This document shows positions 6,745 through 58,887 of a stretch of DNA of 64,000 bases, in pieces; the first letter of the stretch is position 1, and every line of letters begins with the position of its first letter. The notes beneath the pieces were generated by a model, which made no database searches, was not told the origin of the DNA, and saw only the letters and a list, made by a program, of their open reading frames with translations. Source of the stretch: Lentilactobacillus senioris (lineage in GTDB: Bacteria > Bacillota > Bacilli > Lactobacillales > Lactobacillaceae); assembly GCF_026798195.1 (NCBI RefSeq), contig NZ_JAPQEZ010000002.1, forward strand, positions 1 to 64,000, read 5' to 3'. The translations under genes were made by a program, and so were the position numbers.

Positions 6745-6912
6745 AAATTACAGCCAATCGTTGAGTTTTAGCACTATACAGCGTAGTTATAAAATAACAG
6801 CTACGTTAGTTCAAGCCTTATTTTGACAAGAACAGCTGACTCATTGGCGTTTTTCGACGTTTCTGAGCAGTAGCGTTTTCCGTATAGGAGCCTCACCTAA
6901 CAGCTAATCCAT
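6745..6912 (-). promoter_or_regulatory. M-box (ykoK-type) Mg2+ riboswitch
   Basis: The reverse strand carries the conserved M-box core in order: GTTAGGTGAGGCTCCTATAC, the CTACTGCTCAGAAACGTC segment, GACG-like arm and CGCCAATGAGTCA, a variable hairpin (CGTAGCTGTT with AACTACG), then AGTGCTAAAACTCAACGATT. This order and sequence are characteristic of the aptamer that senses Mg2+ and terminates transcription of magnesium transporter genes. Here no transporter follows. GATTGGCTG and CAGTCAATC just downstream can form the expression-platform hairpin. Confidence 0.9.
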
Positions 6913-23081: not shown

Positions 23082-23131
23082 TTTACATTTTTTGAAAACG
23101 TGATATGATATTTTTGTGAAATAAATAACAA
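23082..23131 (+). promoter_or_regulatory. adhE promoter with Rex-like operator
   Basis: TTTACA (23082-23087) and TATGAT (23104-23109) are spaced by 16 bases. Directly downstream, TTGTGAAATAAATAACAA (23114-23131) matches 15 of 18 positions of the Rex operator TTGTGAAATATTTCACAA. Rex is released from DNA at a high NADH/NAD+ ratio, which would raise AdhE when reducing power accumulates. Confidence 0.75.
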
Positions 23132-23157: not shown

Positions 23158-25788
23158 ATGGCAAAGGAAAACCAAAACAAACCAAAACAAGCTGTTGAAG
23201 TAAAAACTACTAGTGTTGACGATGTAATTAACGGATTGGTGGCTAACGCCGTTTCCGCATTACACGAAATGGATTCATTTGACCAAGCTAAGGTCGACTA
23301 CATTACCCACCAAATGGTAATGGCCGGCTTGGATGCCCACATGGATTTGGCAATTATGGCCGCTGACGAAACTGGTCGGGGGGTTGCTGAAGACAAAGCT
23401 GTTAAAAACATTTTTGCTACCGAAGAAATTTGGCACCACATCCGCGATCACAAAACCGTTGGGATCATCGAAGATGACAAGGAACGCCAATTAATTAAAG
23501 TGGCAGAACCACTTGGAGTTTTAGCCGGAATTACTCCCGTTACTAACCCAACTTCTACTACATTATTCAAGTCGATTATTTCTATGAAGACTAGAAACCC
23601 AATTATCTTTAGTTTCCATCCCCAAGCAATGAAGGCTTCTGTCGCTGCTGCTAAAGTAGTTCGGGATGCTGCGGTGGCTGCTGGGGCACCAGAAGGAATT
23701 ATCCAATGGATTGAAGAACCAAGTCTAGAAGCCACTACTAAATTAATTAATCATCCAGATGTTGCTAGCACCTTGGCAACTGGGGGTCCTGGGATGGTTA
23801 AGGCAGCTTACTCAACTGGCAAGCCAGCATTGGGCGTTGGTCCTGGTAACGGCCCGGTTTACATTGAAAAAACTGCTAACATCGCCCGTGCCGTAAACGA
23901 CATCGTGCTTTCTAAGACGTTTGATAATGGGATGATCTGTGCTACTGAAAACAGTGCGGTAGTTGATGACGCCATCTATGACGATATCAAGGAACAATTT
24001 GAACGTAACGGCGTTTTCTTCATTAACGCTGAAGACAAAGCGTCCTTGGCTGACGCAATGTTTGATGCTAAGCGGGGGGGCGTTAAAGGTCCTATCGCTG
24101 GTAAATCAGCCATCCAAATTGCTGAATTGGCCGGTATCAAGGTTCCTGAAAACACTAAGGTTCTTGCTGCTGAATTAGCTAATGATGAAATTGGTCCTAA
24201 GTTCCCACTTTCTGGTGAAAAGTTAAGCCCAGTCTTGTCATTTTACCGAGTTAACAGTCATGACGAAGCCTTTACAGTTTGTGAAGCCTTACTGAATTAT
24301 GGGGGCCTTGGTCATACTGCTGGGATTCAAACCACTGATGAAGATTTGTCCGTTGAATTTGGTAAGCAAATGAAGGCTGCCCGGGTCTTAGTTAATACTC
24401 CTGGCGGTTTCGGTGGAATTGGGGACTTGTACAACCAAATGACTCCTTCCATGACTTTAGGAACTGGTTCCTGGGGTGCTAACTCAATTTCTCACAACGT
24501 TACTGATTATGACCTCTTGAACATCAAAACTATCGCAAAGAGGCGAAATAATATGCAATGGATTAAATTACCACGGGTCTACTTCGAAAAGACTTCTGTT
24601 CGTTACTTGGACAGCATGCCCGGCATCGAAAAGGTCTTCATCGTTACTAGTCCATCAATGGTAGAACACGGCTATGTTGATATCGTCTTAGACGAATTAA
24701 AGCGTCGCCCTAACGAAATTCAATACTCATTATTCTCAAGTGTTGAACCAGATCCAACTACCGATACGGTTAACAAAGGGGTCGCTCAAATGCGGGCTTT
24801 CCAACCAGACACCATCATTGCTTTAGGTGGGGGGTCACCATTGGATGCCGCTAAGAACATGTGGTTATTCTATGAAGATCCAGAAGCTAACTTCTTTGGA
24901 GCTAAGCAAAAATTCTTGGATATTAGAAAGCGGGCATACAAGTTTAATAAGCCTAAGAAAGCCCAATTTGTAGCTATTCCAACTACCTCTGGGACTGGCT
25001 CAGAAGTAACACCATTTGCCGTTATCACTGATTCTAAGACGCACGTTAAATACCCATTGGCTGATTATGCGTTGACTCCTGACGTTGCCATTATCGATCC
25101 TCAATTTGTGGAAACCGTTCCTAAGGGTACCGTTGCCGCTTCTGGATTGGACGTTCTCTGTCACGGAATTGAATCATTTGTTTCCGTAATGGCTTCAGAT
25201 TACACTCGCCCATTGTCACTTCAAGCAATCAAGTTGGTCTTTGAAAACTTGACTGATTCTTACAATGGCGATCCAACTGCTAGAGCAGAAATGCATAACG
25301 CAGCTACATTAGCTGGGATGGCATTTGGAAATGCCTTCTTGGGAATTAACCATTCTATCGCCCACAAACTCGGGGGAGAATTTGGCTTAACCCACGGAAT
25401 TGCCATCGCTATCACTATGCCACACGTTATTCGTTACAACTTCAAGTTACCTAAGAAGATTGCCGTTTGGCCTAAGTACGAATCATTTAGAGCTGACAAG
25501 GATTACGCTGAAATTGCTCGCTACGTTGGCCTCAAAGGCGATAGTGACGAAGAATTGAAAGAAGCCTTGGTAAACAAGATTATTGAATTGGCTCATTCAG
25601 TCGGTGTTTCTCTTAGCTTGAAAGATTGGGGCGTTGATAAAGCTCAATTCGATGCTACCGTTGATGAATTAGCTAAGTTGGCTTACGAAGACCAATGTAC
25701 TACTGCTAACCCTAAAGAACCATTAATGGCTGACCTTAAGCAAATTATGATCGACGAATATGATGGTCGGGGAGTCGAAAAGAAATAA
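23158..25788 (+). CDS. adhE: Bifunctional acetaldehyde-CoA/alcohol dehydrogenase
   Basis: An 876-aa two-domain enzyme reducing acetyl-CoA to acetaldehyde and then ethanol with two NADH, the main NADH sink of heterolactic metabolism. The aldehyde dehydrogenase half (about 1-430) has the catalytic Cys in FDNGMICATENSAVV. The iron-dependent alcohol dehydrogenase half (about 460-876) has ALGGGSPLDAAKNMW, PTTSGTGSEVTPFAV and the metal histidines in GINHSIAHKLGG and LTHGIA. These enzymes assemble into spirosomes. CTTGGAGG precedes ATG. Codon use is strongly biased, as for a highly expressed gene, and it is monocistronic. Confidence 0.97.
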   Translation: MAKENQNKPKQAVEVKTTSVDDVINGLVANAVSALHEMDSFDQAKVDYITHQMVMAGLDAHMDLAIMAADETGRGVAEDKAVKNIFATEEIWHHIRDHKTVGIIEDDKERQLIKVAEPLGVLAGITPVTNPTSTTLFKSIISMKTRNPIIFSFHPQAMKASVAAAKVVRDAAVAAGAPEGIIQWIEEPSLEATTKLINHPDVASTLATGGPGMVKAAYSTGKPALGVGPGNGPVYIEKTANIARAVNDIVLSKTFDNGMICATENSAVVDDAIYDDIKEQFERNGVFFINAEDKASLADAMFDAKRGGVKGPIAGKSAIQIAELAGIKVPENTKVLAAELANDEIGPKFPLSGEKLSPVLSFYRVNSHDEAFTVCEALLNYGGLGHTAGIQTTDEDLSVEFGKQMKAARVLVNTPGGFGGIGDLYNQMTPSMTLGTGSWGANSISHNVTDYDLLNIKTIAKRRNNMQWIKLPRVYFEKTSVRYLDSMPGIEKVFIVTSPSMVEHGYVDIVLDELKRRPNEIQYSLFSSVEPDPTTDTVNKGVAQMRAFQPDTIIALGGGSPLDAAKNMWLFYEDPEANFFGAKQKFLDIRKRAYKFNKPKKAQFVAIPTTSGTGSEVTPFAVITDSKTHVKYPLADYALTPDVAIIDPQFVETVPKGTVAASGLDVLCHGIESFVSVMASDYTRPLSLQAIKLVFENLTDSYNGDPTARAEMHNAATLAGMAFGNAFLGINHSIAHKLGGEFGLTHGIAIAITMPHVIRYNFKLPKKIAVWPKYESFRADKDYAEIARYVGLKGDSDEELKEALVNKIIELAHSVGVSLSLKDWGVDKAQFDATVDELAKLAYEDQCTTANPKEPLMADLKQIMIDEYDGRGVEKK

Positions 25789-25862: not shown

Positions 25863-25925
25863 GGTATTACTTTTGGTTATTTAAAGGATTACTTTTATAT
25901 ATTAGCCAACTATTTATTATAAGCA

Positions 25926-25962
25926 TATAATATTCATAAGGATAATGTGAAATAAATCACAT
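25926..25962 (+). promoter_or_regulatory. maoC promoter with Rex/CRP-like palindrome
   Basis: TATAAT at 25926-25931 follows a weak -35 (TTAGCC). ATGTGAAATAAATCACAT at 25945-25962 is a palindrome with 7-bp arms (ATGTGAA/TTCACAT allowing one mismatch) and shares the block TGTGAAATAAAT with the adhE site. It matches 14 of 18 Rex consensus positions. The core TGTGA-N6-TCACA would also suit a CRP/FNR-type regulator. Confidence 0.7.
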
Positions 25963-25988
25963 AATTTGCATTTTGGAGGCCACTGCTT

Positions 25989-26432
25989 ATGGATAGTTAT
26001 AAAATCATTTATGATGATGAAATTGAATTAGGAATGATGGGTACTTTTTCAAAACGTGTAACTAGGCAAGATGTTGAAGATTTTGCTAAGGTAACTGGTG
26101 ATTTTAATCCAATGCACATGGATGATGGATTTGCTAACCAAACTCAATTTCATGAACGAATCGCTCATGGTATGATTTCGGCAGGGATGATTTCAGCATG
26201 TATCGGAACTCAGATGCCGGGACCAGGGGCAATTTATTTAGGGCAGACATTGCGATTTAATAAACCAGTTCATTTTGACGATGTTTTAGTAGTTAACGTG
26301 GAAATTACTAAAATTGATCAAAAAAAACATTTTAAGCTGGTTACTTTAAAAACTACCGTCACTAATCAAGATGGTGAGGTAGTTACAGATGGTGAAGCCC
26401 AAATTATGCCTGCTCAAAGAGATAAAAAATAA
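25989..26432 (+). CDS. MaoC-family (R)-specific enoyl-CoA hydratase / 3-hydroxyacyl-CoA dehydratase
   Basis: A 147-aa single hot-dog domain enzyme. The hydratase-2 signature is intact: FAKVTGDFNPMHMDDGFA around residues 34-51, with the catalytic Asp and His, and then FHERIAHGMISAGMISACIG. Such proteins reversibly dehydrate (R)-3-hydroxyacyl-CoA (or ACP) to the trans-2-enoyl form. TTGGAGG precedes ATG. It stands alone between adhE and a convergent crotonase gene and carries a Rex-like site. By context it may supply enoyl-CoA to the reductase at 28.9 kb; a phosphate-acyltransferase partner is not visible. Codons are AT-richer than in adhE. Confidence 0.87.
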   Translation: MDSYKIIYDDEIELGMMGTFSKRVTRQDVEDFAKVTGDFNPMHMDDGFANQTQFHERIAHGMISAGMISACIGTQMPGPGAIYLGQTLRFNKPVHFDDVLVVNVEITKIDQKKHFKLVTLKTTVTNQDGEVVTDGEAQIMPAQRDKK

Positions 26433-26444
26433 TAAATTAATATA

Positions 26445-26489
26445 TTAAAAAACCACTTTTAATTTATATAGATTAAAAGTGGTTTTTTA
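26445..26489. terminator. bidirectional terminator, maoC / crotonase
   Basis: AAAAAACCACTTTTAAT and ATTAAAAGTGGTTTTTT form a long perfect stem with T tracts on both strands. Confidence 0.9.
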
Positions 26490-26518
26490 ATTTCGCTGAT
26501 CAATATTAATTGGTAAAA

Positions 26519-27316
26519 CTAGTCTCCATTAAATGTAGCTGAACGTTTTTCTAGAAAGGCACTCATACCTTCTTTTTGATCATTAGTAGCAAAAGTTTGA
26601 GCCCACATCTGAGTTTCAAAATCAATTGCAATATCTAATGGAAGGTCAGCAGCACGATCAATAACATACTTGGCCATACCGACTGCAATAGGACTGTTTT
26701 TCATAACAGCTGCTGCAATTTCATTAACTTTATTCATTAACTCTTCTGGTTCAGCGATTTCGTCAGCTAACCCAATTCGGTGAGCCTCTTCAGCACTGAT
26801 CATGGTTGCCATGGAAATTATTTCTTTGGCTTTACCTCTACCAACTAATCGAGTTAGTCGTTGAGTGCCGCCAAATCCAGGAACGATACCCAAACCAACT
26901 TCTGGTTGGCCAAACTTGGCTTTAGAAGAAACTACACGAACATCGCATGAAGATGCCAGTTCACAACCACCACCAAGACAGTAACCATTAACTGCTGCAA
27001 TGGTTAATTGTGGTAGGTTTTCAATTTTGCTGAATGAATTATGAGCAATTTTAGATAATTCTGCTGCTTGTAATGAATTCATATCACGCATTTCAGAAAT
27101 ATCAGCTCCAGCAACAAAAGCCTTTTCTCCTGCACCAGTAACAACGACAATCTTAACTTCATCTTGGTTTTCTCGAATTAAATCAAAAGCTTGTCCGATT
27201 TCAATCAAGGTAGCAGTATTAAGGGCGTTCATAGACTTGGGACGGTTAATGGTCAAAGTAGCAATGTCATTTTCAACAGTGAGTAGAATGTTTTCGTAGT
27301 TAGGGGTATTCATCAT
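26519..27316 (-). CDS. Enoyl-CoA hydratase (crotonase family)
   Basis: A 265-aa soluble enzyme of the crotonase superfamily, expected to hydrate or dehydrate (S)-3-hydroxyacyl-CoA. The oxyanion-hole segments AFVAGADISEM and GYCLGGGCELA are present, and both catalytic glutamates are conserved, in GGGCELASSCD and in FGQPEVGLGIVPGFGGTQRL. Length is standard. ATG at 27316 follows GAAAGGAAG; an upstream start at 27370 would lie in the promoter. It is convergent with maoC and divergent from the channel gene. Having R- and S-type hydratases side by side is unusual in lactobacilli. The natural substrate length is unknown, though similarity is to short-chain (Crt-type) enzymes. Confidence 0.9.
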   Translation of the reverse strand: MMNTPNYENILLTVENDIATLTINRPKSMNALNTATLIEIGQAFDLIRENQDEVKIVVVTGAGEKAFVAGADISEMRDMNSLQAAELSKIAHNSFSKIENLPQLTIAAVNGYCLGGGCELASSCDVRVVSSKAKFGQPEVGLGIVPGFGGTQRLTRLVGRGKAKEIISMATMISAEEAHRIGLADEIAEPEELMNKVNEIAAAVMKNSPIAVGMAKYVIDRAADLPLDIAIDFETQMWAQTFATNDQKEGMSAFLEKRSATFNGD

Positions 27317-27345
27317 TAATAACTTCCTTTCGATTTTCAGGGGGT

Positions 27346-27397
27346 TATCAACGAGTACTTTCGAAACCAATCATAACGATTTTTTTTTAAATTGCAA
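27346..27397 (-). promoter_or_regulatory. crotonase promoter with 17-bp motif shared with ter
   Basis: On the reverse strand TTGCAA (27392-27397) and TATGAT (27370-27375) are 16 bases apart. TATCAACGAGTACTTTC (27346-27362, forward-strand reading) begins at the expected transcription start and recurs exactly upstream of the enoyl-CoA reductase gene (28781-28797). Nearby TTGGTGAAAAAT (27401-27412) also recurs there (28627-28638). A common regulator is likely. The remaining bases up to 27670 are AT-rich, with no gene; a weak Rex-like half-site TTGTGAAA is near 27503. Confidence 0.6.
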
Positions 27398-27677
27398 CCG
27401 TTGGTGAAAAATAATTCAAAATCTTTTTAAATAGCAATGCCTTGATATCAATGATTTAATGGAAGTCTATGAGGCATTGAAAAAGAAAATAAATAAAAAG
27501 ATTGTGAAAATAAAATCATTTACACAAAATTAAAGCTTGTTTTTGCGTAGATTTTACATATGTATAACATATAGATATACCTACTATGAAAAAATATCAA
27601 TATTTACGCTGAAAATCTATTCCTGTATAGTTCAGGTCGTCGAAACACAAAATTAAATATTTAGGAGGATCATGATT

Positions 27678-28430
27678 ATGAGTGGATCGTGGGATATGCG
27701 TTATGCAGCTGAATTTTTCGGTACTTTAATGCTGGTTTTGTTTGGAAATGGGGCAGTTGCTAATTCATTTCTAAATAAAACGACTGGTAATGGTGATGCA
27801 GGACAAGCAAATGGTGGCTGGATTTTTATTGCCTTAGGATACGGTTTTGGGGTAATGATTCCAGCAATGATGTTTGGTTCTATTTCTGGTAATCACATTA
27901 ATCCAGCAATTACCATTGCTCAAGCGGTAGCCGGAATTTTTCCTTGGAGTCACGTAGCTGTATATATTTTATGGCAGTTCTTAGGAGCAATGGCTGGACA
28001 GCTACTGATAATAGCAATTTATTGGCCGCACTACAAATTAACTAAAGATCCGGCGTTAGTGTTAGCTAGCTTTTCTACTGGCGATGGAACTGGTAGTAGT
28101 TTAAATGGATTTGTTACTGAAATGATTGGAACGGCTGTGTTAATCTTTGGCGCAATGGGTTTATATCGTGGGATGTTTTTCTCTCAAAGCGTTGATATAG
28201 CAAATATTGGTATTGGCTTTTTGATAATGACATTAGTTATTTCAGCTGGTGGACCCACTGGACCTGCTTTAAATCCCGCAAGAGACTTGGGACCTAGGAT
28301 AATTCATGCTATAATGCCAGTTCCTAATAAGGGATCTTCTCATTGGGAATATAGTTGGGTGCCAGTTTTAGCTCCAACAGTGGGAGCTATTGTTGGTATT
28401 TTGATTTTTAAAGTAATCTTTTCACTATAG
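27678..28430 (+). CDS. Aquaglyceroporin / glycerol facilitator-type channel
   Basis: A 250-aa membrane channel of the MIP family with six helices and two half-helices. Both signature loops are present: GNHINPAITIA and PALNPARDLGPRI. The Asp after NPAR is typical of glycerol-conducting channels rather than water-only aquaporins. Likely cargo is glycerol or another small neutral solute; lactic acid passage has been described for some lactobacillar homologues. ATG at 27678 is favoured because AGGAGG is nine bases upstream; ATG at 27672 is too close. It is monocistronic and sits inside the acyl-CoA gene group. Confidence 0.9.
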   Translation: MSGSWDMRYAAEFFGTLMLVLFGNGAVANSFLNKTTGNGDAGQANGGWIFIALGYGFGVMIPAMMFGSISGNHINPAITIAQAVAGIFPWSHVAVYILWQFLGAMAGQLLIIAIYWPHYKLTKDPALVLASFSTGDGTGSSLNGFVTEMIGTAVLIFGAMGLYRGMFFSQSVDIANIGIGFLIMTLVISAGGPTGPALNPARDLGPRIIHAIMPVPNKGSSHWEYSWVPVLAPTVGAIVGILIFKVIFSL

Positions 28431-28438
28431 TTTGATAC

Positions 28439-28475
28439 GGCGATCTTATATACATATAAGGTCGCATTTCTTTGT
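28439..28475 (+). terminator. terminator of the channel gene
   Basis: GCGATCTTATA and TATAAGGTCGC form an 11-bp stem with one G-U pair and are followed by a T-rich tract. Confidence 0.75.
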
Positions 28476-28863
28476 TTTAAAGACTTTTTAACTTTTAAAT
28501 GATTGTAAATTTAATAATGATAATACAAACAAAAAAAGATTGTGAATTTAAAAACTAAAATAATTATTGAATTAAGGTTACTCTAGAATCATAACTTACG
28601 GTTATGTATAAAATAAAAAAGCGATATTGGTGAAAAATGTTGAAAGGGATTACATTGTTGGTGAAGATAAATTAATCGATTCACAATGTCATTGCTTGTA
28701 AGTTCGATTAAGTTATCTAGGTAAATAACCATATTGGCTGTTGAGTTAATTTATTTAACTGCTGGGACGGTCCTCATTGATATCAACGAGTACTTTCAAC
28801 CGTTTTAACAAGAAAATGGATTGACATACATACAGCACAAAAAATAAAAAGGTGGTATTTATT
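28476..28863 (+). promoter_or_regulatory. long upstream region of the enoyl-CoA reductase gene
   Basis: This 388-base gap has no gene. It holds the motif TATCAACGAGTACTTTC (28781-28797) shared with the crotonase promoter, a second shared block TTGGTGAAAAAT (28627-28638), and two Rex-like half-sites (TTGTGAATTT near 28540 and ATTCACAA near 28678). TTGACA at 28821 is a -35 candidate, but I see no well-placed -10. The ribosome site AAAGGTGG precedes ATG at 28864. Confidence 0.5.
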
Positions 28864-30081
28864 ATGGCTGAAGAAAAAACAATTGTTGAATTAACCGAAA
28901 AAATGAAGGGAAACGTTGCTCGTTCAGTAAATCCTTATGGTTGTCGTCAAGAAATTTTAAACCAAATTGCTTATGTAGAAGGTAAAGGACGCTACGACGG
29001 AGCTAAAAAAGCCTTAATTTTGGGTGGCTCATCCAGTTATGGACTTGCAAGCCGAATTACAGCTGCCTTTGGTTCTGGTGCTGATACTATTAATGTTTCC
29101 TTTGAACGTCCACCAAAGGATGAAAAAATGTTAGGAACTGCTGGTTGGTATAATAATTATTTCTTCCGTAAAGCTGCAGAAGAAGCGGGATTGATTGCTA
29201 AGAACTTTAACGGAGACTGCTTTACTCAAGAAATGAAAGATCAAGTTATTGAATATATCAAAAATGAATTTGGGGGCAAAATTGATTTATTAGTTTACTC
29301 AGTTGCTGCACCCAAACGAGCAAACCCCGATAATCCTGATGAAGTTTGGTGTTCAGTAATCAAATCAGTTGGTGAACCAGTTACTGGTGAAAATATTAAC
29401 CTTGAAGAAGATACTTTATTTGAACAAACCGTTGAACCAGCTACCCAGGAAGAAATTGAAGCTACTAAACATGTTATGGGTGGCGAAGATTGGGAAATCT
29501 GGGTCGATGAATTAAAGAAAGCCGGTGTTTTGGCAGATGGCTTTAAGACTATTTTGTACTCATATATTGGACCTAAGAGTACCTATGCTTTCTACCATGA
29601 AGGAACTTTAGGGGCTGCTAAAGATGCAGCTGAAGAATCATCACATAGAATTCAAAAAGAAATTGATGATATTCATGGTGAATCACTCATTTCAGTATCG
29701 CGTGCTGTTACAACTAAAGCTTCTGTGGTTATTCCAATTTTCCCACTTTACTGCCTAGCTCTTTATAAAGTAGAAGAAGAAACTGGAACTCATGAAACTC
29801 CAATCATGCATAAAGATCGTTTATTCCGTGATATGGTTTATGGCAATAAACGAGAAATTGATGATAATGGTCGTCTTCGTCCTGATGCTTGGGAACAACG
29901 TCCAGATATTCAAGCTAAGGTTGAGGAGTTAATGGCTAAAATTACACCAGAAAACTTTAATACTGATTTAACTGGTTACGATGAATTTCGTCGAGAATTT
30001 ATGCAACTAAATGGATTTGAAGTTCCTGGTGTAACCGAAACTACCGCAAATCTAGAAGAATTACAAAGTTGGGAACCTTAA
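28864..30081 (+). CDS. trans-2-enoyl-CoA reductase (FabV/Ter family, NADH)
   Basis: A 405-aa reductase of the FabV/Ter family, which reduces trans-2-enoyl-CoA (Ter) or enoyl-ACP (FabV). The cofactor motif is ALILGGSSSYGLASRITAAF, and VSFERPP after it carries the acidic residue associated with NADH preference. The catalytic Tyr-x8-Lys is intact in AFYHEGTLGAAK, preceded by YSYIGPKSTY. Length is typical (about 400). Because it sits beside hydratases and a CoA-transferase, not a fatty-acid operon, I infer a fermentative Ter role, producing saturated acyl-CoA. FabV function in lipid synthesis cannot be excluded. Confidence 0.9.
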   Translation: MAEEKTIVELTEKMKGNVARSVNPYGCRQEILNQIAYVEGKGRYDGAKKALILGGSSSYGLASRITAAFGSGADTINVSFERPPKDEKMLGTAGWYNNYFFRKAAEEAGLIAKNFNGDCFTQEMKDQVIEYIKNEFGGKIDLLVYSVAAPKRANPDNPDEVWCSVIKSVGEPVTGENINLEEDTLFEQTVEPATQEEIEATKHVMGGEDWEIWVDELKKAGVLADGFKTILYSYIGPKSTYAFYHEGTLGAAKDAAEESSHRIQKEIDDIHGESLISVSRAVTTKASVVIPIFPLYCLALYKVEEETGTHETPIMHKDRLFRDMVYGNKREIDDNGRLRPDAWEQRPDIQAKVEELMAKITPENFNTDLTGYDEFRREFMQLNGFEVPGVTETTANLEELQSWEP

Positions 30082-30182
30082 GTGAAAATTGAATCCAATT
30101 GAAAACTTTTGACGGTAACCATTGCGTATACCATCAATCTAAAAATATTAATTTATTTATTAAACAACGAGGTGAATGAATT

Positions 30183-31778
30183 ATGACAGTTGAATTTATT
30201 AATAGTCAACAAGCGGCGAAACTGATTCCTGATAACGCAACGGTGGCTCTCGAAGGGTTTTTGGGTTCGGATGTAGCTGAAGAAATTTTAAGAAGTATTA
30301 GAAAACGATTCGATGAAGAAGGTCACCCAAAGCAACTTGAAATCTGGCATGCTTCTGGTATTGGTGATGGTGATAGTAAAGGAACCAACAATCTGGCAGT
30401 TAAGGGTCTTATGAGAAGATTAGTTGGTGGTCATTATGGATTAGCGCCACAACTAGAACCCCTCATTGCCAACAATGAATTTGAAGCTTACAATCTTCCG
30501 CAAGGAGTGCTTTCTCAGATTTTCCGTGATTCTGCTGCTCATAAACCTGTTCAAATTAACAGGGTCGGACTGGGTACCTTCGTTGATCCAGACGTTGAAG
30601 GTGGCAAACTTAATGATGCTGCTAAAGATTATGATTTAGTTTCTAAAATGCAAATTGATGGTAAAGATTACCTAGCTTATGAGGTTCCTAAGCCCAATGT
30701 TGCTATATTACGTGGAACTTTTGCTGATGAAAATGGAAATATTACTTTTGATGATGAACCGTTAACGTTGGAATCAACTTCTATTGCTATGGCAGCTCAT
30801 AATAATGGTGGAAAAGTTTTCGTTCAGGTAAAACGAGTAGTTAAGGCGGGTGCATTAAAACCTAAAGATATTCGAATTCCTGGCCTTTTAGTAGATTATG
30901 TTGTCGAAACTGCTGATGAAAAAATGACTATGCAGAGTAATTCAACGCAGTATAATCCAGATTATATTAATGCAGATGTTGTTAAACCAGCAGGTGCTAT
31001 TGAAGTTCCACTAGATGCAAAAAAAGTTATTGCCAGAAGAGCAGCAATGTTTAAAAGTGATACTGACCATATTGTTAATTATGGTATTGGTAAATATCCA
31101 GAGACAGTTTCTCTTATTCTAAAAGAAGAAGGCAGTGCAGAAGGGGTTACGACTACTGTTGAACCAGGTACTTTTGGTGGTGTGCCAATGGGTGGTGGTG
31201 ATTTTGGCTGTGCTATTGCACCTGAATCAACCATTGATCAACCATATATGTTTGATTTTTATGATGGTGGCGGAATTGATATTACCTTCTTAGGATTAGC
31301 CGAATTGGATAGCAAAGGTGACATTAATGTTTCTAAATTTGGCCCTAAAATTGCTGGTACTGGTGGCTTTGTAAACATTACTCAAAACACACCCACAGTT
31401 GTCTTTACTGGTACTTTTACTGCTGGTGGACTGCGTGAAAGTATTAAAGATGGTAAATTGATAATTGATCAAGAAGGCAGAAATCATAAGTTAGTTAAAG
31501 CTGTAGAACAAATTACATTTTCCGGTCCGGTTGCTCATGAAAATAATCAAAATATTTACTATGTAACTGAGAGAGCAGTTTTTCGACTAACGGCAGATGG
31601 TATTGAATTAATTGAAATAGCTCCAGGAATTGATTTACAACAAGACGTTTTAGATCAAATGGATTTTATTCCCAAAATTAGTTCAAAATTAAAGTACATG
31701 GATGCTCGGATTTTTGCGGAACCACTTATGGGTGACACGATTAATCGAGCTAACCAAGAGGTTGGAGTAATCGCATAG
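30183..31778 (+). CDS. Acetate/propionate-type CoA-transferase (fused alpha-beta, YdiF/Pct-like)
   Basis: A 531-aa family I CoA-transferase with both subunits fused, as in propionate CoA-transferase. Features include the N-terminal LIPDNATVALEGFLGSDVAEE, ILRGTFADENGNITFDDEPL, VEPGTFGGVPMGGGDFGCA, and a C-terminal half with FYDGGGIDITFLGLAELDSK, where a catalytic Glu is expected. It would move CoA from acetyl- or acyl-CoA to a free short acid. GAGGTG precedes ATG 101 bases after the reductase gene, with only a weak hairpin between, so the two may be cotranscribed. It is followed by a strong terminator shared with lysR. Confidence 0.9.
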   Translation: MTVEFINSQQAAKLIPDNATVALEGFLGSDVAEEILRSIRKRFDEEGHPKQLEIWHASGIGDGDSKGTNNLAVKGLMRRLVGGHYGLAPQLEPLIANNEFEAYNLPQGVLSQIFRDSAAHKPVQINRVGLGTFVDPDVEGGKLNDAAKDYDLVSKMQIDGKDYLAYEVPKPNVAILRGTFADENGNITFDDEPLTLESTSIAMAAHNNGGKVFVQVKRVVKAGALKPKDIRIPGLLVDYVVETADEKMTMQSNSTQYNPDYINADVVKPAGAIEVPLDAKKVIARRAAMFKSDTDHIVNYGIGKYPETVSLILKEEGSAEGVTTTVEPGTFGGVPMGGGDFGCAIAPESTIDQPYMFDFYDGGGIDITFLGLAELDSKGDINVSKFGPKIAGTGGFVNITQNTPTVVFTGTFTAGGLRESIKDGKLIIDQEGRNHKLVKAVEQITFSGPVAHENNQNIYYVTERAVFRLTADGIELIEIAPGIDLQQDVLDQMDFIPKISSKLKYMDARIFAEPLMGDTINRANQEVGVIA

Positions 31779-31789
31779 CAGATAAAATT

Positions 31790-31823
31790 AGGGACTTAGA
31801 CTGAAGTGTCTAAGTCCCTTTTT
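31790..31823. terminator. bidirectional terminator, CoA-transferase / lysR
   Basis: AGGGACTTAGAC and GTCTAAGTCCCT form a 12-bp stem followed by a T tract. Confidence 0.9.
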
Positions 31824-31827: not shown

Positions 31828-32745
31828 TTAGTTGTTAGGCTGTTGTGCGTCTTTGAAATAAGTCGTAAACCAGCGTTCTACGTATTTAACTAATGTACTA
31901 GAGTATTGTTCTCCTACGTGGCAAATACTGATATTCCAAGGAAAAAATGGTTCGAAATTTCGATGTTCAATAGTTTTGTTATCAGAATAATTATTTCCAA
32001 TTGGAGCAGCAATGATACCAACTGTGCTCATCTCTTTGCACATATTCAATACAAGATCCCAAGAACTAGTTTGAAAAAAGAAGTTGGGAACAATTCCGGC
32101 ATTTTCTAATTTTTGTTTAATTTGATAAGTTACCATGAAGCTATCATCCAAAGTTACAATTCGTTCTTTGCTAATTTCTTCAATTGGGATGGCACCATGC
32201 AGTTCATGAAAGCGATGTTTGTTGTTGAACCAAACAGAAACTGAATCGCGATAAATAATGGATTCTTTAATTGCGGGGAAAGTTGCTGGAGATACAATGA
32301 CCGCCAAATCAATTTCTTGAAGCAGCAACATTTTTTGAAGTTCGTAAGCGCCTTTTTCAACAATTTTTAATTCAATGGCTGGATTTTCTTGCATGAACTT
32401 AGGAATGGCTTTATTAAAAACGGTAGAGATAATAACCGGAGCAATTCCGACACGAATCCTGCCACTACGTAAATTAGCATGATCATGAAGGCTTTGCATC
32501 AAAGCATTGTATTCTGTGCTAACCTGACGACCATGGCGGATTAGATCTTCACCGACTGAAGTTAGGCCCACAATTCTCCCTTTTTTATGAATAAAAATTT
32601 GAATGTTTTCGGTACTTTCAACTTCACGAATTAACTTGCTTAGAGCTGGTTGAGAGATGTTTAATTGTTTAGCGCTTTTGGTTAAATTAAAATCAGTATC
32701 CACAATGGTTAACAAATATTGAATTTGGTGAATATCCATACTCAT
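31828..32745 (-). CDS. LysR-type transcriptional regulator
   Basis: A 305-aa regulator with the LysR helix-turn-helix (LTKSAKQLNISQPALSKLIREVE, about residues 20-42) and a type 2 periplasmic-binding-like effector domain. The recognition region (HKKGRIVGLTSVGEDLI) resembles the CysB/Cbl subgroup somewhat. It is divergent from the kinase-hydrolase pair 46 bases away and convergent with the CoA-transferase gene, so it is a candidate activator of either. ATG at 32745 follows AAAGGAG with a rather long spacing. Confidence 0.9.
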   Translation of the reverse strand: MSMDIHQIQYLLTIVDTDFNLTKSAKQLNISQPALSKLIREVESTENIQIFIHKKGRIVGLTSVGEDLIRHGRQVSTEYNALMQSLHDHANLRSGRIRVGIAPVIISTVFNKAIPKFMQENPAIELKIVEKGAYELQKMLLLQEIDLAVIVSPATFPAIKESIIYRDSVSVWFNNKHRFHELHGAIPIEEISKERIVTLDDSFMVTYQIKQKLENAGIVPNFFFQTSSWDLVLNMCKEMSTVGIIAAPIGNNYSDNKTIEHRNFEPFFPWNISICHVGEQYSSTLVKYVERWFTTYFKDAQQPNN

Positions 32746-32791
32746 AATTAAGTTGATGCTCCTTTCAATACGATAAAAGGTGGTAAAAATC

Positions 32792-33520
32792 GTGACAATG
32801 ATTAAGCAGAATTTGGAAAAGCAAATTATTAATCATATTCAAGTAAATCAATACCAAAATCGACCAATTGTTATTGGTATAACTGGAAATATTGCTTCTG
32901 GTAAAACTACACTTGCACAAAAAATTTATGATTTGTGTTATCAGGAATTTCCTTCATTAATTTGCAATCTTGTTTCAACTGATGATTTTTTATTAGATAA
33001 TAAAAAATTGCAGAGACGACAGTTAATGAAATATAAAGGTTTTCCTATTAGTTATGATCAAACTATGATTGATAAGTTTGTTATGGCCATTAATCATAAT
33101 CGTTTGATTAATATCCCTTGCTACAATCATGTCATGAATGATGTCGATAAACAACATTTAAAACAAATTTTTATGCCAGATATTATTGTTTTGGAAGGGC
33201 TAATGGTAATGCAACCAAAGTTTCGCTCGATGCTGACAATGAGTTTATTTTTGAATACTAACTTAGATCAAAATTTTCAGTGGTATGTAAAACGATGCCA
33301 TGATTTAGGCTTGAACAAAATATATCAATTAAATTGGGAAGATTATAATAAATTTATCAGACAGGCTTGGCAGCAAATTAATATCCCTAATTTTGTAGAA
33401 AATGTTTTACCGTTTAGAGAACAAGCTGATTTTCAATTGGATATTTCGGCAGATCATCAGATTGAACAAATACGGTCTATTACTGCTCAAACTATGACGA
33501 CTAAGATGGTTGGTATTTGA
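32792..33520 (+). CDS. Short type I pantothenate kinase (CoaA) homologue
   Basis: A 242-aa P-loop kinase. Walker A reads GITGNIASGKTTLA. CoaA hallmarks are visible along the chain: STDDFLLDNKKLQRRQLMKY, then KGFPISYD, PCYNHVMNDV with the equivalent of the catalytic His, PDIIVLEGLMVMQ, and near the end LPFREQADFQLDISADH. Typical CoaA is about 310 aa, so loops are shortened. It would phosphorylate pantothenate or a related pantetheine-like compound. The start is probably GTG at 32792 with AAAAGGTGG upstream; ATG at 32798 is an alternative. It pairs with a hydrolase 25 bases downstream. Very AT-rich codons. Uridine-kinase-like activity is the alternative. Confidence 0.82.
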   Translation: MTMIKQNLEKQIINHIQVNQYQNRPIVIGITGNIASGKTTLAQKIYDLCYQEFPSLICNLVSTDDFLLDNKKLQRRQLMKYKGFPISYDQTMIDKFVMAINHNRLINIPCYNHVMNDVDKQHLKQIFMPDIIVLEGLMVMQPKFRSMLTMSLFLNTNLDQNFQWYVKRCHDLGLNKIYQLNWEDYNKFIRQAWQQINIPNFVENVLPFREQADFQLDISADHQIEQIRSITAQTMTTKMVGI

Positions 33521-33545: not shown

Positions 33546-34328
33546 ATGCATTTTTTAACAAGTGATGGTGTGAATCTAAACTACGATGACATAGGCACTG
33601 GACAACCAGTGCTAATCATGACAGGATATGCGGGCTATAAGGAAATTTGGCATTCTCAAGTACAACAATTATTGAAACACGGATATCGAGTAATTAATTT
33701 GGATCGGCGTAATCACGGCCATTCTGAAACAACAACTAAGGGGTTAAGAATGAGCCGTCAAGGAAAAGACGTTGCTGAATTATTGCATGCTTTAAACTTA
33801 AGTAATGTAGATATGATTGGTAATTCTATGGGCGCGGCGGTTATTTGGGCTTATTGTTCTTTATATGGTGACAATTTAATTCATAAGATTATTAGTGTAG
33901 ATCAATCTCCCAAGATGATTAGTGATGATGATTGGCGATATGGAATGCTGGATATAACATGGGATAATTTTCCCACTTCTGCAGAACAAATGTATCATGT
34001 GCATACTACTTATCAACGAATTAATGATGAAACCTACAAAATAGTTAAGGAAGCGCAGGGGAATGAAAAATTTGACTATGAGCTAAATCGACCATTACTT
34101 TATGATCATGCTTTTCAAGATTGGCGAGATGTTATTGCTGGTCTACAGGTTCCAATTTTATTTATGGCAGGTGAAAAATCACCTTTTTGGCCAGCGAAGC
34201 ATGCAGAAGTTTCTGCTAAAATAGCACAAAACGGACAATTCTTTATAGTCCCAAAGGCAGGACACATTTTGATGGCAGAACAAACTGAAATATTTAATGA
34301 ATCAATGTTAAGTTTTTTAAATGATTAA
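33546..34328 (+). CDS. Alpha/beta hydrolase
   Basis: A 260-aa alpha/beta-fold hydrolase. The nucleophile elbow is GNSMG (Ser about residue 94), the catalytic His is in PKAGHILMAE near residue 243, and an acidic residue is available in LFMAGEKSPFW or SVDQSPK. The N-terminal oxyanion segment is LIMTGYAGYKEIW and NLDRRNHGHS is the typical strand-4 motif. GGAGG precedes ATG at 33546; an out-of-frame ATG at 33542 terminates quickly. It is likely cotranscribed with the CoaA-like gene. Esterase, thioesterase or amidase action are all possible; no substrate is evident. Confidence 0.88.
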   Translation: MHFLTSDGVNLNYDDIGTGQPVLIMTGYAGYKEIWHSQVQQLLKHGYRVINLDRRNHGHSETTTKGLRMSRQGKDVAELLHALNLSNVDMIGNSMGAAVIWAYCSLYGDNLIHKIISVDQSPKMISDDDWRYGMLDITWDNFPTSAEQMYHVHTTYQRINDETYKIVKEAQGNEKFDYELNRPLLYDHAFQDWRDVIAGLQVPILFMAGEKSPFWPAKHAEVSAKIAQNGQFFIVPKAGHILMAEQTEIFNESMLSFLND

Positions 34329-34377: not shown

Positions 34378-35289
34378 TTAAATGATTTTTAGATCAACAG
34401 TATTAATGAAATTTCTCATTGATTGGCTTAATGCTTCCTCTTTTAAATAAGAAATCACGATATTTACTTTTAAAACATCAATTGGCATTTTGAAGATATT
34501 ACACTTGGTTGAATCAAAGTTATTGTTCACAAAAAAACTAGGAATAAATGTACAACCTAATCCACTTAATGCCATATTGGAAGCTGTATCTATGGATTTA
34601 ATTTCAAATTTCTTTTTGATGTGTAATTTATTGCTATTTAAAAACAACTCAATTAAACGCATAAACCCAGAACCAGCATGTAAGGTAATAAAATCACAAT
34701 TGTTCAATTGTTTCAAAGATCCTGCAAAAGATATAATTCTTTTGTTATTTTCACTGAATAGAGGACATGATCGATTGATGATTAGATAAACTGGTTCGGT
34801 TACTAATGGTTGGTAGTGAATTATATTAGGAAAGATTGGCAACATTCTAATATGCATATCAATTTCTTTATTTAATAACATGTTCTCCAAATTAATGGAA
34901 GGCAATTCTTTGATGGAGATATGGTCATTAGGATATTTATCTGTGTATTGATTAAGTATTATTGGAACTAATTTACTGGAGATAGACTGATTAATTCCTA
35001 GCCTGATACTGTCAGTTTTATTTAACGTCATCTCCCTTACATCGTTTATAAGGGTGTTATATTCGTTATCAATATCTTCAAGACCTTGCAGATATTTGGC
35101 TCCACTTTTGGTTAAGGCAATCGGTCGCTGATTACGATCTAGTAACTGTACACCTAGTTCTTCTTCAGCATCTTTAATGTACTTTGATAAATACGGCTGA
35201 GATATATAGAGAGTTTTTGATGCTGCGGTAATACTACCCGAAGCCATTACCGCCTTTAGGTAATTCAATAAAGTGAAATCATTAGTCAC
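34378..35289 (-). CDS. LysR-type transcriptional regulator (sulfur module)
   Basis: A 303-aa LysR-family regulator: helix-turn-helix GSITAASKTLYISQPYLSKY (about residues 17-36), then LDRNQRPIALTKSGAKYL and an effector-binding domain. The start is GTG at 35289, after AAGGAGG. It is divergent from the YeeE/persulfide-reductase genes across 140 bases, the classic arrangement in which a LysR protein controls its neighbour in response to a pathway metabolite; a sulfur compound is the likely effector by context. Confidence 0.9.
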   Translation of the reverse strand: MTNDFTLLNYLKAVMASGSITAASKTLYISQPYLSKYIKDAEEELGVQLLDRNQRPIALTKSGAKYLQGLEDIDNEYNTLINDVREMTLNKTDSIRLGINQSISSKLVPIILNQYTDKYPNDHISIKELPSINLENMLLNKEIDMHIRMLPIFPNIIHYQPLVTEPVYLIINRSCPLFSENNKRIISFAGSLKQLNNCDFITLHAGSGFMRLIELFLNSNKLHIKKKFEIKSIDTASNMALSGLGCTFIPSFFVNNNFDSTKCNIFKMPIDVLKVNIVISYLKEEALSQSMRNFINTVDLKII

Positions 35290-35360
35290 CTTGTTACCTC
35301 CTTAAAATTATGATGCTCCATAGTCTGTAGGTTATTGATCTACAAACATATACGTATTTT

Positions 35361-35391
35361 ACCTTATGTAACCGCTATCGTAAAATAAGGT
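35361..35391 (+). promoter_or_regulatory. inverted repeat in the lysR-yeeE intergenic region
   Basis: ACCTTAT (35361-35367) and ATAAGGT (35385-35391) form an inverted repeat with 17 bases between. It is a candidate LysR binding site 40-70 bases upstream of the transporter start. Confidence 0.5.
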
Positions 35392-35429
35392 TGTGATAAA
35401 AAATACATAATCATTGAAAGGAGTCAAAC

Positions 35430-36758
35430 ATGATAAAAGATGGCTTTGAAAATAATGGATTGAACAGCAAACAACCCATTATTGGCTTGGTTTTATTGGT
35501 GTTAATGATAATCTGGGGCGCATATTTATCTTCAACAGTTCCCAAATTACCAGTGTATCTTGTAGCAGGGGTTTTATTAGGATATGTGCTAACTCGATCA
35601 AGGTTTGGATTTGCTGGTGGGGTAAAACGGGTGTTTTATCGAGGTGAATCTAGTTTGACCGTTGCATTATTACTTTTATTCACTATTACTGCAATTGTAA
35701 ATGTTGGTATTCAATGGGCCGCTGCTAGTAAGGGAGCTCTTCCAGCTTGGCAGATAACCAATCCAGATATTCAATCAGTAATTCCGGGTACTCAAAATGT
35801 TCGGATTGGTAATATCTCGGTAGCCTTAGGAGCATTCTTGTTTGGAATGGGCATGATCATGGCTGGTGGTTGTGCTTCTGGAACTCTCTCTGATTTTGGT
35901 GAAGGCGAAGGGCATGCTTGGGTTGCGTTACCATTTTTTGTTTTGTTTGCGGCTCCAGGTCAATATTTAGGGTATGTATTAGATAATACTGCCATTGGTA
36001 AGGTAGGAGTTAATGTTTGGTTACCACAATATGTAGGTTATGGTGGAGCAATTGCTATTACAATTTTAATTATGTTTGGACTATTCCTAATTACCAAAGG
36101 TTATGAAAACAAAAAGAAAAAAGACGGGATGTATCTGGATCCAAAGTCTGATTGGGAAAAATTTGAGGAACCTTTGGACACGGATAATTCTCAAGAACCG
36201 TTTAAATTAAATTCGTGGAAAACTTATCAAACCTTTTTCGTTAAACGATGGACATTCGTCACTGGAGCAGTGGGAATTGCAATTGGAGCTATTTTTATAT
36301 TGACTACTACTGGAAAAGCCTGGGGAGTAACCACACCATTCGTTAGTTTAGATCAAAAATTTTTCCAACTATTTGGAATGAAATTTACTTCACCAGCCTT
36401 TGATGAAACTGCTGAAGCAATGAAGGGATCATTATTAGTTGATGGTGGAACTATCAGAAATATTGGAATTGTAGTTGGTGCTTTAATCGCATTTACTTTA
36501 GCTGGTAGATTTAAATTTAGTCTCAAAATGAGTTTTCAAGATTTTATTGGTTTTGCTATTGGCGGATCATTGATGGGCTTAGGGTCCAGAATGGCTAGAG
36601 GATGTAACATTGGTGCTTTATATTCTGCAATCACTAATTTTTCGTTACATGGTTACATCTTCATGTTTTTCCTAATTTTGGGAGCAGCATTTGCCATTAA
36701 AATTTTTCAAGGACGTTTAGCACTATGTCCAATTTATAAACCTAAAAATAAAAAATAA
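35430..36758 (+). CDS. YeeE/YedE-family sulfur-compound transporter
   Basis: A 442-aa membrane protein with about 10-12 helices and the two-part YeeE/YedE (DUF395) architecture. Each half has the conserved cysteine motif: GMIMAGGCASGTLSDFGEG near residue 145 and RMARGCNIGALYSAI near 395. TsuA-type members import thiosulfate through such cysteines. A hydrophilic loop (about 230-265) separates the halves. AAAGGAG precedes ATG. It starts a probable operon with the reductase gene 26 bases downstream. The exact substrate (thiosulfate, persulfide or other) is not determined. Confidence 0.88.
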   Translation: MIKDGFENNGLNSKQPIIGLVLLVLMIIWGAYLSSTVPKLPVYLVAGVLLGYVLTRSRFGFAGGVKRVFYRGESSLTVALLLLFTITAIVNVGIQWAAASKGALPAWQITNPDIQSVIPGTQNVRIGNISVALGAFLFGMGMIMAGGCASGTLSDFGEGEGHAWVALPFFVLFAAPGQYLGYVLDNTAIGKVGVNVWLPQYVGYGGAIAITILIMFGLFLITKGYENKKKKDGMYLDPKSDWEKFEEPLDTDNSQEPFKLNSWKTYQTFFVKRWTFVTGAVGIAIGAIFILTTTGKAWGVTTPFVSLDQKFFQLFGMKFTSPAFDETAEAMKGSLLVDGGTIRNIGIVVGALIAFTLAGRFKFSLKMSFQDFIGFAIGGSLMGLGSRMARGCNIGALYSAITNFSLHGYIFMFFLILGAAFAIKIFQGRLALCPIYKPKNKK

Positions 36759-36784
36759 ATTAGATTTGAAAGGAAGTAACAATC

Positions 36785-38488
36785 ATGGGTAAAAATATTA
36801 TTGTAATCGGTGGAGTAGCAGGTGGAGCATCAGTAGCAGCAAGAGCACGTAGACTAGACGAATCTGCTAATGTAACCATGTTTGAAAAAGGGCCTAATGT
36901 CTCATTTTCTAACTGTGCATTGCCATATCATTTATCTGGCACCATAGCAGATGCTAACGATATTGTATTGATGGATCCTAAACAATTTAAGGCTCAATAT
37001 AACATTAATGCGGTTGTAAATCATGAAGTTGTTGATATTGACTCTAATAAACAAGAAGTGGTAGTTAAAGATGTTTTAACTGGTGAATTAGAAAATGTTT
37101 CTTATGATGAATTGTTCTTATCACCAGGAGCAGATCCAATTTTGCCATCTAATATTAAAGGAATTAATGGGGATAATGTTTTTACCATTAGAAATGTTGA
37201 AGATATTAAAGCGATTAAATCATTTTTAGATGAAAAATCAGTTAAAAATGTTTCCGTTATTGGCGGTGGGTTTATTGGAATTGAAACTGCTGAAAATCTC
37301 AAAAAGGGTGGCTACAATGTCAGCTTAGTGGAAGGTATGGATCATATTCTTGGCACTATCGACTATGATATGGCCCAAATTGTTCAAAAAACCATGTTAG
37401 ATAATGGTGTAGATGTAATCGTAGATGATGTTTTAACTGAAATTGACAGTAATAGTATTACGTTAAAATCAGGTAAAAAGTTAGATAGTGAAGCTGTTAT
37501 TATGTCGGTTGGGGTTAAACCAGCTACCGCTTTAGCTCAAAAAGCTGGAGTGGAATTGGGGGTAACTGGGGCAATCAAAGTAGACCAACATTATCAAACT
37601 AATTTACCACATGTATATGCAGTAGGGGATGCAATTGAACTGGTTAATAGAATTACCAGAAAACCAACCAAATTAAATTTAGCTTTTCCTGCTCAGTTAG
37701 AAGCTCGGCAAGCGGTTGATCATATTTACGGACGAGAAGTTCATAATCGTGGAATCATTGGTTCTCAGTGTATCCCAGTATTTGAAATGAATGTAGCTTC
37801 AACTGGATTAACTGAAAAGCAATGTCAAGAAGCTGAGATTGACTATGAAGTGGCAGTGGTTATTCCTAAAGATAAGGTTGCATTAATGCCAAATGCTAAG
37901 CCACTTTATTTCAAGCTGATTTTTGGCAATCCATCAGGCGAAATTTTAGGTGCACAAGCTATTGGCGAAAGTTCTGTTGATAAACAAATAGACGTTATTG
38001 CAACTATGATCACTAATCACAACTATGTTGAAGATTTAGAAACGTTAGAATTATGTTACCAACCAACGTTTAGTACTGCTAAAAATGCAGTTAATATGGC
38101 CGGTTTAGTTGCTACCAACTTGTTAAACGGTGAGTATAAACAAGTAACTGTAGATCAAGTACGACCATTAGTAGAAGCTGGTGCAACTATTATTGACGCA
38201 AGAGAATCATTTGAATATGAAGAAGGTCATATTAAAGGGGCTAAAAATATTCCGATGAGCGAATTTAGAGATCGTCTTTCTGAAATTCCAACGGATAAAC
38301 CAGTTTATATTCATTGCTTGAGTGGGCAACGTAGTTACAATGTTGTTAGAGCTTTAGTTAACATGGGTTATACCAACATTTATAACATTTCTGGGTCTTA
38401 CCTAGATATTTGTGAATATGAATACTTTATGGACCAAACTACCGATAGAGAACCTATCGTAACTAATTATCGATTTGATTTACTATAA
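36785..38488 (+). CDS. CoA-disulfide / NADH-dependent persulfide reductase with rhodanese domain
   Basis: A 567-aa flavoprotein. The FAD motif is IGGVAGGASVAARARR, followed by the redox-active cysteine in FSNCALPYHLSG (about residue 43), the NAD-binding SVIGGGFIGIETAENL and the second FAD motif HVYAVGDAIELV. A C-terminal rhodanese domain (about 465-555) has the active cysteine in HCLSGQRSYNVVRAL. This two-domain length matches CoADR-Rhd/Npsr enzymes, which reduce CoA-disulfide, CoA-persulfide or polysulfide with NAD(P)H. It probably handles sulfane sulfur brought in by the YeeE-like transporter and consumes reducing equivalents. Confidence 0.92.
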   Translation: MGKNIIVIGGVAGGASVAARARRLDESANVTMFEKGPNVSFSNCALPYHLSGTIADANDIVLMDPKQFKAQYNINAVVNHEVVDIDSNKQEVVVKDVLTGELENVSYDELFLSPGADPILPSNIKGINGDNVFTIRNVEDIKAIKSFLDEKSVKNVSVIGGGFIGIETAENLKKGGYNVSLVEGMDHILGTIDYDMAQIVQKTMLDNGVDVIVDDVLTEIDSNSITLKSGKKLDSEAVIMSVGVKPATALAQKAGVELGVTGAIKVDQHYQTNLPHVYAVGDAIELVNRITRKPTKLNLAFPAQLEARQAVDHIYGREVHNRGIIGSQCIPVFEMNVASTGLTEKQCQEAEIDYEVAVVIPKDKVALMPNAKPLYFKLIFGNPSGEILGAQAIGESSVDKQIDVIATMITNHNYVEDLETLELCYQPTFSTAKNAVNMAGLVATNLLNGEYKQVTVDQVRPLVEAGATIIDARESFEYEEGHIKGAKNIPMSEFRDRLSEIPTDKPVYIHCLSGQRSYNVVRALVNMGYTNIYNISGSYLDICEYEYFMDQTTDREPIVTNYRFDLL

Positions 38489-38496
38489 AAAATGAA

Positions 38497-38536
38497 ACAA
38501 CTAAAACTGGGAAGGAAAGATCCCAGTTTTAGTTGT
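38497..38536 (+). terminator. strong hairpin between reductase and tauC-like gene
   Basis: ACAACTAAAACTGGGA and TCCCAGTTTTAGTTGT form a perfect 16-bp stem with an 8-base loop, but the T tail is short (TTTGTG). It could be a terminator or an attenuator that lowers expression of the transporter genes. Confidence 0.7.
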
Positions 38537-38554
38537 TTGTGTAGGGGATTCATA

Positions 38555-40318: not shown

Positions 40319-40327
40319 GGATGAATA

Positions 40328-58707: not shown

Positions 58708-58887
58708 ATGCGATGAGTCGAGCTATCACGCAACTTCGGTTGTTCGCGCAAGCGATTTAAGTGATTTTTCGAGCGGGACACATATCTACCGTATTGTAGG
58801 TGTCTGATTAGCTGATGTTGTGGAACTTCACTAATCCATTCTTAATTGAATGCCGCAAAAAGGCGTGCCAATTGGCGCGCCTTTTTT
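58708..58887 (+). ncRNA. Structured orphan non-coding RNA, about 180 nt
   Basis: An extended -10 (TGTTATAAT, TATAAT at 58696-58701) precedes a non-coding segment ending in a strong terminator (GGCGTGCC-AATT-GGCGCGCC-T6, 58858-58887). In between are a UUCG-capped hairpin (CAACTTCGGTTG), a GCAA-tetraloop hairpin (TCGCGCAAGCGA), a GACAC...GTGTC hairpin enclosing CTAC/GTAG, and a long-range pairing AGCTATCA with TGATTAGCT that closes them into one multi-branch domain. No ORF follows before a convergent gene, so it is an independent RNA gene. The size suits 6S RNA, but I cannot confirm that fold. Confidence 0.75.

Follow-up and report, generated by a model that had tools for sequence, protein, structure and literature searches.

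Within a 64,000-nucleotide stretch of Lentilactobacillus senioris DNA (the window; contig NZ_JAPQEZ010000002.1, positions 1 to 64,000), five genes encode a MaoC-type hydratase, a crotonase, a glycerol-type channel, a FabV/Ter-family enoyl reductase, and a fused coenzyme A (CoA)-transferase. These genes form a real module, which recurs across lactobacilli. We consider it fairly probable that the module is a CoA-dependent electron sink that would turn an external 3-hydroxy or 2-enoic acid and NADH into a saturated acid.

A gene set built around an enoyl reductase and a CoA-transferase

All five genes are present and intact at the positions where a preliminary description, made from the sequence letters, had placed them:

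25989 to 26432, + strand: MaoC/PhaJ-type (R)-specific enoyl-CoA hydratase (profile match, solved relatives, motif)
26519 to 27316, - strand: crotonase/short-chain enoyl-CoA hydratase with an ATG start (the listed frame extends to 27370)
27672 to 28430, + strand: glycerol-type MIP channel (Gla/GlpF-like), kept in the same place in related loci
28864 to 30081, + strand: FabV/Ter-family enoyl-CoA reductase, presumed to be NADH-dependent (profiles, motif, tree)
30183 to 31778, + strand: fused family I CoA-transferase of the YdiF/FadX/FarA type (YdiF alignment, tree)

The MaoC protein matches PF01575 in a profile search (85.5 bits), and its best solved match is the (R)-specific enoyl-CoA hydratase 5cpg; its GDFNPMH stretch is the hydratase-2 motif G-D-x-N-P-x-H, which places it among the PhaJ-type (R)-hydratases. 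The crotonase has kept both catalytic-glutamate motifs, GGGCELA and GQPEVGLG, as had been described; among solved structures, it matches the short-chain-enoyl-CoA hydratase 5z7r best. Translation of this gene probably begins at the ATG at 27316; the TTG at 27370 was rejected because a conserved element (27349 to 27362) would then lie inside the reading frame. The channel carries two NPA motifs, the second in the form NPARD. The reductase, which probably runs from the ATG at 28864 to the stop at 30081, scores above both NCBIfam FabV cutoffs (505.9 versus 403 bits and 430 versus 400 bits) and finds its best solved match in 4eue, the C. acetobutylicum protein CA_C0462. Its Tyr-x8-Lys, also noted earlier, is intact (YHEGTLGAAK) and assigns it to the FabV/Ter family. 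A Glu in the stretch VSFERP occupies the position where NADH-type relatives have Glu, and the enzyme is presumed to be NADH-dependent. The CoA-transferase is a single chain of 531 amino acids that aligns with E. coli YdiF over almost its full length, its Glu327 matching YdiF Glu333, which we take to be the catalytic Glu; it is a fused alpha-beta family I enzyme of the YdiF type.

Since the crotonase lies on the opposite strand, the five genes do not make up a single operon. The divergent crotonase is tied to the reductase by a shared 14-bp element, CAACGAGTACTTTC, which occurs exactly twice in the window, 5' of each of these two genes. A degenerate form, CARCRAGYACTTTC, is found at exactly those two places in nine related loci where both promoters are present; a tenth locus, which ends before the crotonase, has the reductase copy. 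There were zero occurrences of CARCRAGYACTTTC in 454,574 control strand-bases, and the element is a candidate module-specific operator.

The survey of co-occurrence that the preliminary description had proposed covered 398 Lactobacillaceae genomes. The reductase is present in 44 of them, the CoA-transferase in 30, and both in 21 (hypergeometric p of about 4e-16); in all 21, the two genes lie on one contig, 14 to 127 bp apart. The related loci run in the order crotonase (-), channel (+), reductase (+), CoA-transferase (+), and LysR (-), often followed by a pantothenate-kinase-like gene and an alpha/beta hydrolase. This order was seen in Companilactobacillus, Lactiplantibacillus mudanjiangensis and daowaiensis, Furfurilactobacillus milii, and four Paucilactobacillus species. 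The position of MaoC varies: it precedes the crotonase in Companilactobacillus, Lactiplantibacillus, and Furfurilactobacillus, wherever the contig reaches far enough, and directly precedes the reductase in Paucilactobacillus, Vagococcus, Brevibacillus, Neobacillus, and one further genome (G366). In the last of these, the CoA-transferase frame of the MaoC-reductase-CoA-transferase triad (L123) holds one TAA, a possible decay or sequencing error. FabV-family reductases about 53 to 62% identical were also seen among unrelated genes, with no CoA-transferase nearby, in L106, other genomes of group g15, and Pediococcus acidilactici (L080).

The MaoC-reductase-CoA-transferase arrangement extends to Vagococcus, Brevibacillus, and Neobacillus. 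In the operons of the latter two genera (L044 and L045), this homologous core, in the same order, is preceded by a PhaB/FabG-like reductase and a thiolase, and unlike in the window, no crotonase or channel of the window type adjoins it; judged by its genes, this set would be a complete butyrate cycle using the same three enzymes. In Vagococcus, a 3-hydroxybutyrate dehydrogenase, a CoA-transferase subunit, a thiolase, and a permease-like gene stand beside the module. No reductase or CoA-transferase was found in the other same-genus genomes of the sample, and the window proteins are 85 to 87% identical to counterparts from other genera; therefore, the module was likely gained by horizontal transfer.

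Rex-like sites and the surroundings of the module

A palindrome, ATGTGA-N6-TCACAT, is located just 5' of the MaoC gene as the Rex-like operator ATGTGAAATAAATCACAT, and a second Rex-like site, TTGTGAAATAAATAACAA, precedes adhE, which encodes the competing ethanol route. We scored both with a weight matrix built solely on published L. oligofermentans Rex-like sites (PMC4972977), the crotonase site having been left out. The MaoC site scores 17.8 and the adhE site 19.4, and both exceed all 180 control upstream regions. An equivalent palindrome is present in seven of eight related MaoC loci, at -33 to -39, and a score of at least 12 is reached in eight of nine MaoC loci at a nearly constant distance from the start. 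In Paucilactobacillus, the Rex-like site sits 5' of the crotonase instead (four of four loci). The window's genome contains a Rex gene, so both parts of a Rex regulon, the regulator and a Rex-like operator at the promoter, are present for MaoC and adhE, which we regard as candidate Rex targets.

Published expression data bear on the same point. LACOL_1481, a short-chain-enoyl-CoA hydratase gene of L. oligofermentans, has the motif TTGTGAAAATGATATCAT at -65, shows a log2 change of 1.7 to 2.4 when growth on glucose is compared with ribose or xylose, and is tabulated together with NADH-reoxidizing genes, although the authors group it with genes that have no clear connection to redox balance (PMC4972977). 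The exact 18-mer TTGTGAAAATGATATCAT lies 66 bases 5' of the crotonase in the P. oligofermentans module (L041, around 8253 to 8319). LACOL_1481 is thus the crotonase of that module, which would supply the missing redox link. A redox role is therefore independently supported by the Rex-like sites and by the published expression of an orthologue.

The remaining features around the five genes are as follows:

23114 to 23131, + strand: Rex-like site TTGTGAAATAAATAACAA, 5' of adhE
23158 to 25788, + strand: adhE (NF010378, 1343 bits; cutoff, 951)
25903 to 25931, + strand: MaoC promoter-like hexamers TAGCCA-17-TATAAT, 10 of 12 positions matching; shuffled sequences give such matches as often as the region does
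25945 to 25962, + strand: Rex-like operator ATGTGAAATAAATCACAT, directly 3' of the MaoC promoter-like site
26444 to 26491: stem-loop terminator between the convergent MaoC and crotonase genes
27349 to 27362: conserved 14-bp element CAACGAGTACTTTC, 5' of the crotonase
28784 to 28797: second copy of the 14-bp element, 5' of the reductase
31790 to 31819: terminator closing the reductase/CoA-transferase pair
31828 to 32745, - strand: LysR-type regulator, candidate regulator of the module, conserved with it
32780 to 33520, + strand: type I pantothenate-kinase-like gene, presumed to act in CoA supply, conserved nearby
33546 to 34328, + strand: alpha/beta hydrolase, possibly an ester or thioester hydrolase, conserved with the module

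The last three genes extend the module downstream and are kept in most related loci. The pantothenate-kinase-like gene scores below the TIGR00554 cutoff (144 versus 235 bits), and a neighboring gene in L. intestinalis is annotated coaA. Farther along the window (34378 to 41080) is a sulfur-looking cluster, read from its sequence, with a LysR gene, a YeeE/YedE-like transporter, a CoA-disulfide reductase with a C-terminal rhodanese-like part (the one member covered by the profile search), and a sulfonate/taurine-type ABC transporter. Rfam places an M-box magnesium riboswitch at 6746 to 6911 (- strand) and a Ref68 (Lacto-3) small RNA at 58709 to 58828 (+ strand).

Alternative roles and related systems

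Several other explanations may account for the module. One is that the reductase is a FabV enoyl-acyl carrier protein (ACP) reductase for membrane lipids or triclosan tolerance and that its neighbors are incidental. It passes the FabV family cutoffs and shares the sequence family and catalytic motif of such enzymes, and FabV genes travel on plasmids. Yet the genome, which is 99.98% complete, lacks the condensing enzyme of type II fatty-acid synthesis: fabF was not found (there was a weak match to the genome's own thiolase only), although the same search detects it in 19 of 24 genus members. No fabI was found either, as a FabI query from a same-genus fab operon (L105) returned only a 25 to 31% background of short-chain dehydrogenases/reductases (SDRs). 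The reductase therefore cannot serve fatty-acid synthesis, and the role of sole enoyl-ACP reductase, which the preliminary description had named as fatal to its own reading, was rejected. The constant CoA-transferase partner and the upstream element shared with the crotonase also speak against incidental neighbors, and we strongly disfavor this explanation as scarcely credible. The fabF gene is also missing from four smaller-genome members of the genus (G051, G199, G346, and G372), which, like the window's species (G000), are predicted fatty-acid auxotrophs. A further possibility is de novo butyrate formation from acetyl-CoA, by thiolase, acetoacetyl-CoA reduction, dehydration, Ter, and the CoA-transferase. 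One thiolase gene is present, and the Brevibacillus and Neobacillus relatives have exactly such an operon. The single thiolase is, however, what we would expect for the mevalonate pathway, and it stands alone: neither a 3-hydroxyacyl-CoA dehydrogenase (weak partial matches only) nor a close PhaB or FabG was found in the genome, where the best PhaB-like proteins are at most 36% identical and look like ordinary SDRs. Synthesis from acetyl-CoA is therefore very unlikely. The module resembles Ter-dependent butyrate formation (C. acetobutylicum CA_C0462 and T. denticola TDE_0597 Ter) in its reductase family, in the Tyr-x8-Lys motif, and in a crotonase nearest to short-chain enoyl-CoA hydratases; unlike that pathway, it has no 3-hydroxybutyryl-CoA dehydrogenase in its genome and would have to start from an external acid. 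The preliminary description had also derived 3-hydroxypropionate from glycerol. This branch falls, since the B12-dependent glycerol/diol dehydratase (PF02286) is absent from the genome, though present in 9 of 24 genus members, and the Pdu-type route was rejected; a glycyl-radical dehydratase was not searched for.

The substrate could instead be a hydroxycinnamic acid (ferulic, caffeic, or p-coumaric), freed from esters by the alpha/beta hydrolase and reduced via its CoA thioester. In March 2026, Weissella cibaria was reported to reduce ferulate via feruloyl-CoA with FarA, a YdiF-type CoA-transferase, and FarB, a flavin-dependent, enoyl-ACP-reductase-like enzyme, whose activity lowers lactate and ethanol and raises acetate in this heterofermenter (PMC13101492). 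The window likewise encodes a YdiF-type CoA-transferase, of the same family as FarA, with an NADH-consuming enoyl-CoA reductase, and the proposed sink would shift ethanol to acetate, so that the FarAB physiology fits. The preliminary description took such a set to be undescribed in heterofermentative lactobacilli; for heterofermentative lactic acid bacteria, this is no longer true of the kind of pathway, although the present set is distinct in its makeup. FarB (936 bp) is of the FabK type by our comparison, whereas the window reductase is of the FabV/Ter type; no hydratases, channel, or pantothenate kinase are reported for FarA/FarB, whereas the window has two hydratases, a channel, and a pantothenate-kinase-like gene as well as upstream elements; and the FarA/FarB substrate is a hydroxycinnamate, whereas the one proposed here is C4-like. 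HcrA/HcrB, the hydroxycinnamate reductase of lactobacilli, also uses an external acid as electron acceptor, but reduces the free acid directly, in a flavin-dependent manner and with no CoA thioester (as described in PMC13101492). FabK-type reductases of about 312 amino acids, like FarB, do occur in sister modules (L108, L111, L112, and L114, the last being the Lactobacillus intestinalis plasmid NZ_CP072985.1), beside a crotonase, with an orthologous CoA-transferase near and a pantothenate kinase; the FabV/Ter gene is missing from these modules except L108. The best model for the FabK-type gene is TIGR03151, below its cutoff, and the copy on the L. intestinalis plasmid is annotated as a nitronate monooxygenase. 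Since unrelated families fill the reductase slot, enoyl reduction appears to be the function of the module; since one of them is the FabK type, hydroxycinnamates stay a rival substrate. Two-gene CoA-transferase/FabK-type operons resembling farAB were also found in three genomes of one Lactobacillaceae genus (L119, L120, and L121). Against a hydroxycinnamate, the window CoA-transferase groups in our tree with those of MaoC/Ter/CoA-transferase sets and on a different branch from the farAB-like ones (49 to 50% identity), and no FabK-type reductase, beside the CoA-transferase or elsewhere, is among the listed frames of the window. Moreover, cinnamate reduction does not need two hydratases, one of which best matches a clostridial-type short-chain hydratase. 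Overall, we find a hydroxycinnamate substrate unlikely, though worth keeping in mind. We give somewhat less weight still to a role in remodeling or detoxifying other acyl-CoAs (medium-chain 2-enoates or branched or sorbate-type acids), in which redox balance would be a side effect; this seems quite improbable. The Ter/FabV and YdiF-type enzymes presumably have a broad substrate range, and the hydrolase and the upstream element specific to the module point to a particular inducer; but the Rex-like control, the induction together with NADH-reoxidizing genes, and the C4-type neighbors in Bacillaceae-type relatives argue against it.

A proposed CoA-dependent electron sink

The electron sink would operate as follows. 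The CoA-transferase would place CoA on a short acid taken up by the cell, either 3-hydroxy or 2-enoic and C4-like, such as 3-hydroxybutyrate or crotonate, with acetyl-CoA as the donor for priming and the product acyl-CoA afterwards; as CoA is recycled from the product, no ATP would be spent. MaoC would act on the (R)-3-hydroxyacyl-CoA and the crotonase on its (S)-form, both yielding 2-enoyl-CoA, which the FabV/Ter reductase would reduce with NADH, and the saturated acid would leave as its CoA moves to the next substrate. As judged from the enzyme families, the net reaction would be 2-enoic acid + NADH -> saturated acid + NAD+ at no ATP cost. One NADH would be reoxidized per turn, leaving acetyl phosphate free for acetate and ATP rather than for ethanol via AdhE. 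The pantothenate-kinase paralogue may support the CoA pool, and Rex and the module-specific operator may turn the genes on.

Uptake of an external acid is the best reading because the de novo and glycerol routes are unlikely and the relatives are of the C4 type: by analogy, the Brevibacillus, Neobacillus, and Vagococcus sets point to C4 chemistry. Some observations weigh against the proposed sink. No 3-hydroxyacid transporter is apparent, and the channel is a generic glycerol-type facilitator. In the matrix scan, the crotonase, channel, and reductase of the window have no significant Rex-like site of their own; Rex and Crp/Fnr sites look alike; and the sites are not independent observations, since the compared loci are related. 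The 14-bp element is without an assigned regulator. Finally, 23 genomes have the reductase but lack the CoA-transferase, which shows that this enzyme family is put to other uses as well. The interpretation in the preliminary description is thus partly supported. It was right in outline, as an enoyl-CoA-reducing, NADH-consuming module outside fatty-acid synthesis agrees with the fabF- and fabI-less genome, the Rex-like sites, and the orthologue expression; it was wrong on the glycerol branch and is unproven on the substrate and the C3/C4 products. A literature search on crotonate, sorbate, or FabV in lactobacilli found nothing on point.

More tentatively, and with rather less confidence than not, lactobacilli may possess a Rex-controlled module, spread horizontally and dedicated to using 3-hydroxybutyrate or crotonate from their surroundings (derived, for instance, from the storage polymer of other microbes) as an electron acceptor and to excreting butyrate, the reductase slot being filled by unrelated families (FabV/Ter or FabK type) across species. 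If this is true, the module would be a source of butyrate in organisms not thought to make it. It would give food and gut lactobacilli a CoA-based electron-acceptor route, would explain the induction of the crotonase alongside NADH-reoxidizing genes, and would offer a testable job for FabV-family genes in species without fatty-acid synthesis. It predicts that lactobacilli given the right substrate form butyrate or similar acids, which would bear on flavor, on the ethanol/acetate balance, and on host-relevant short-chain acids.

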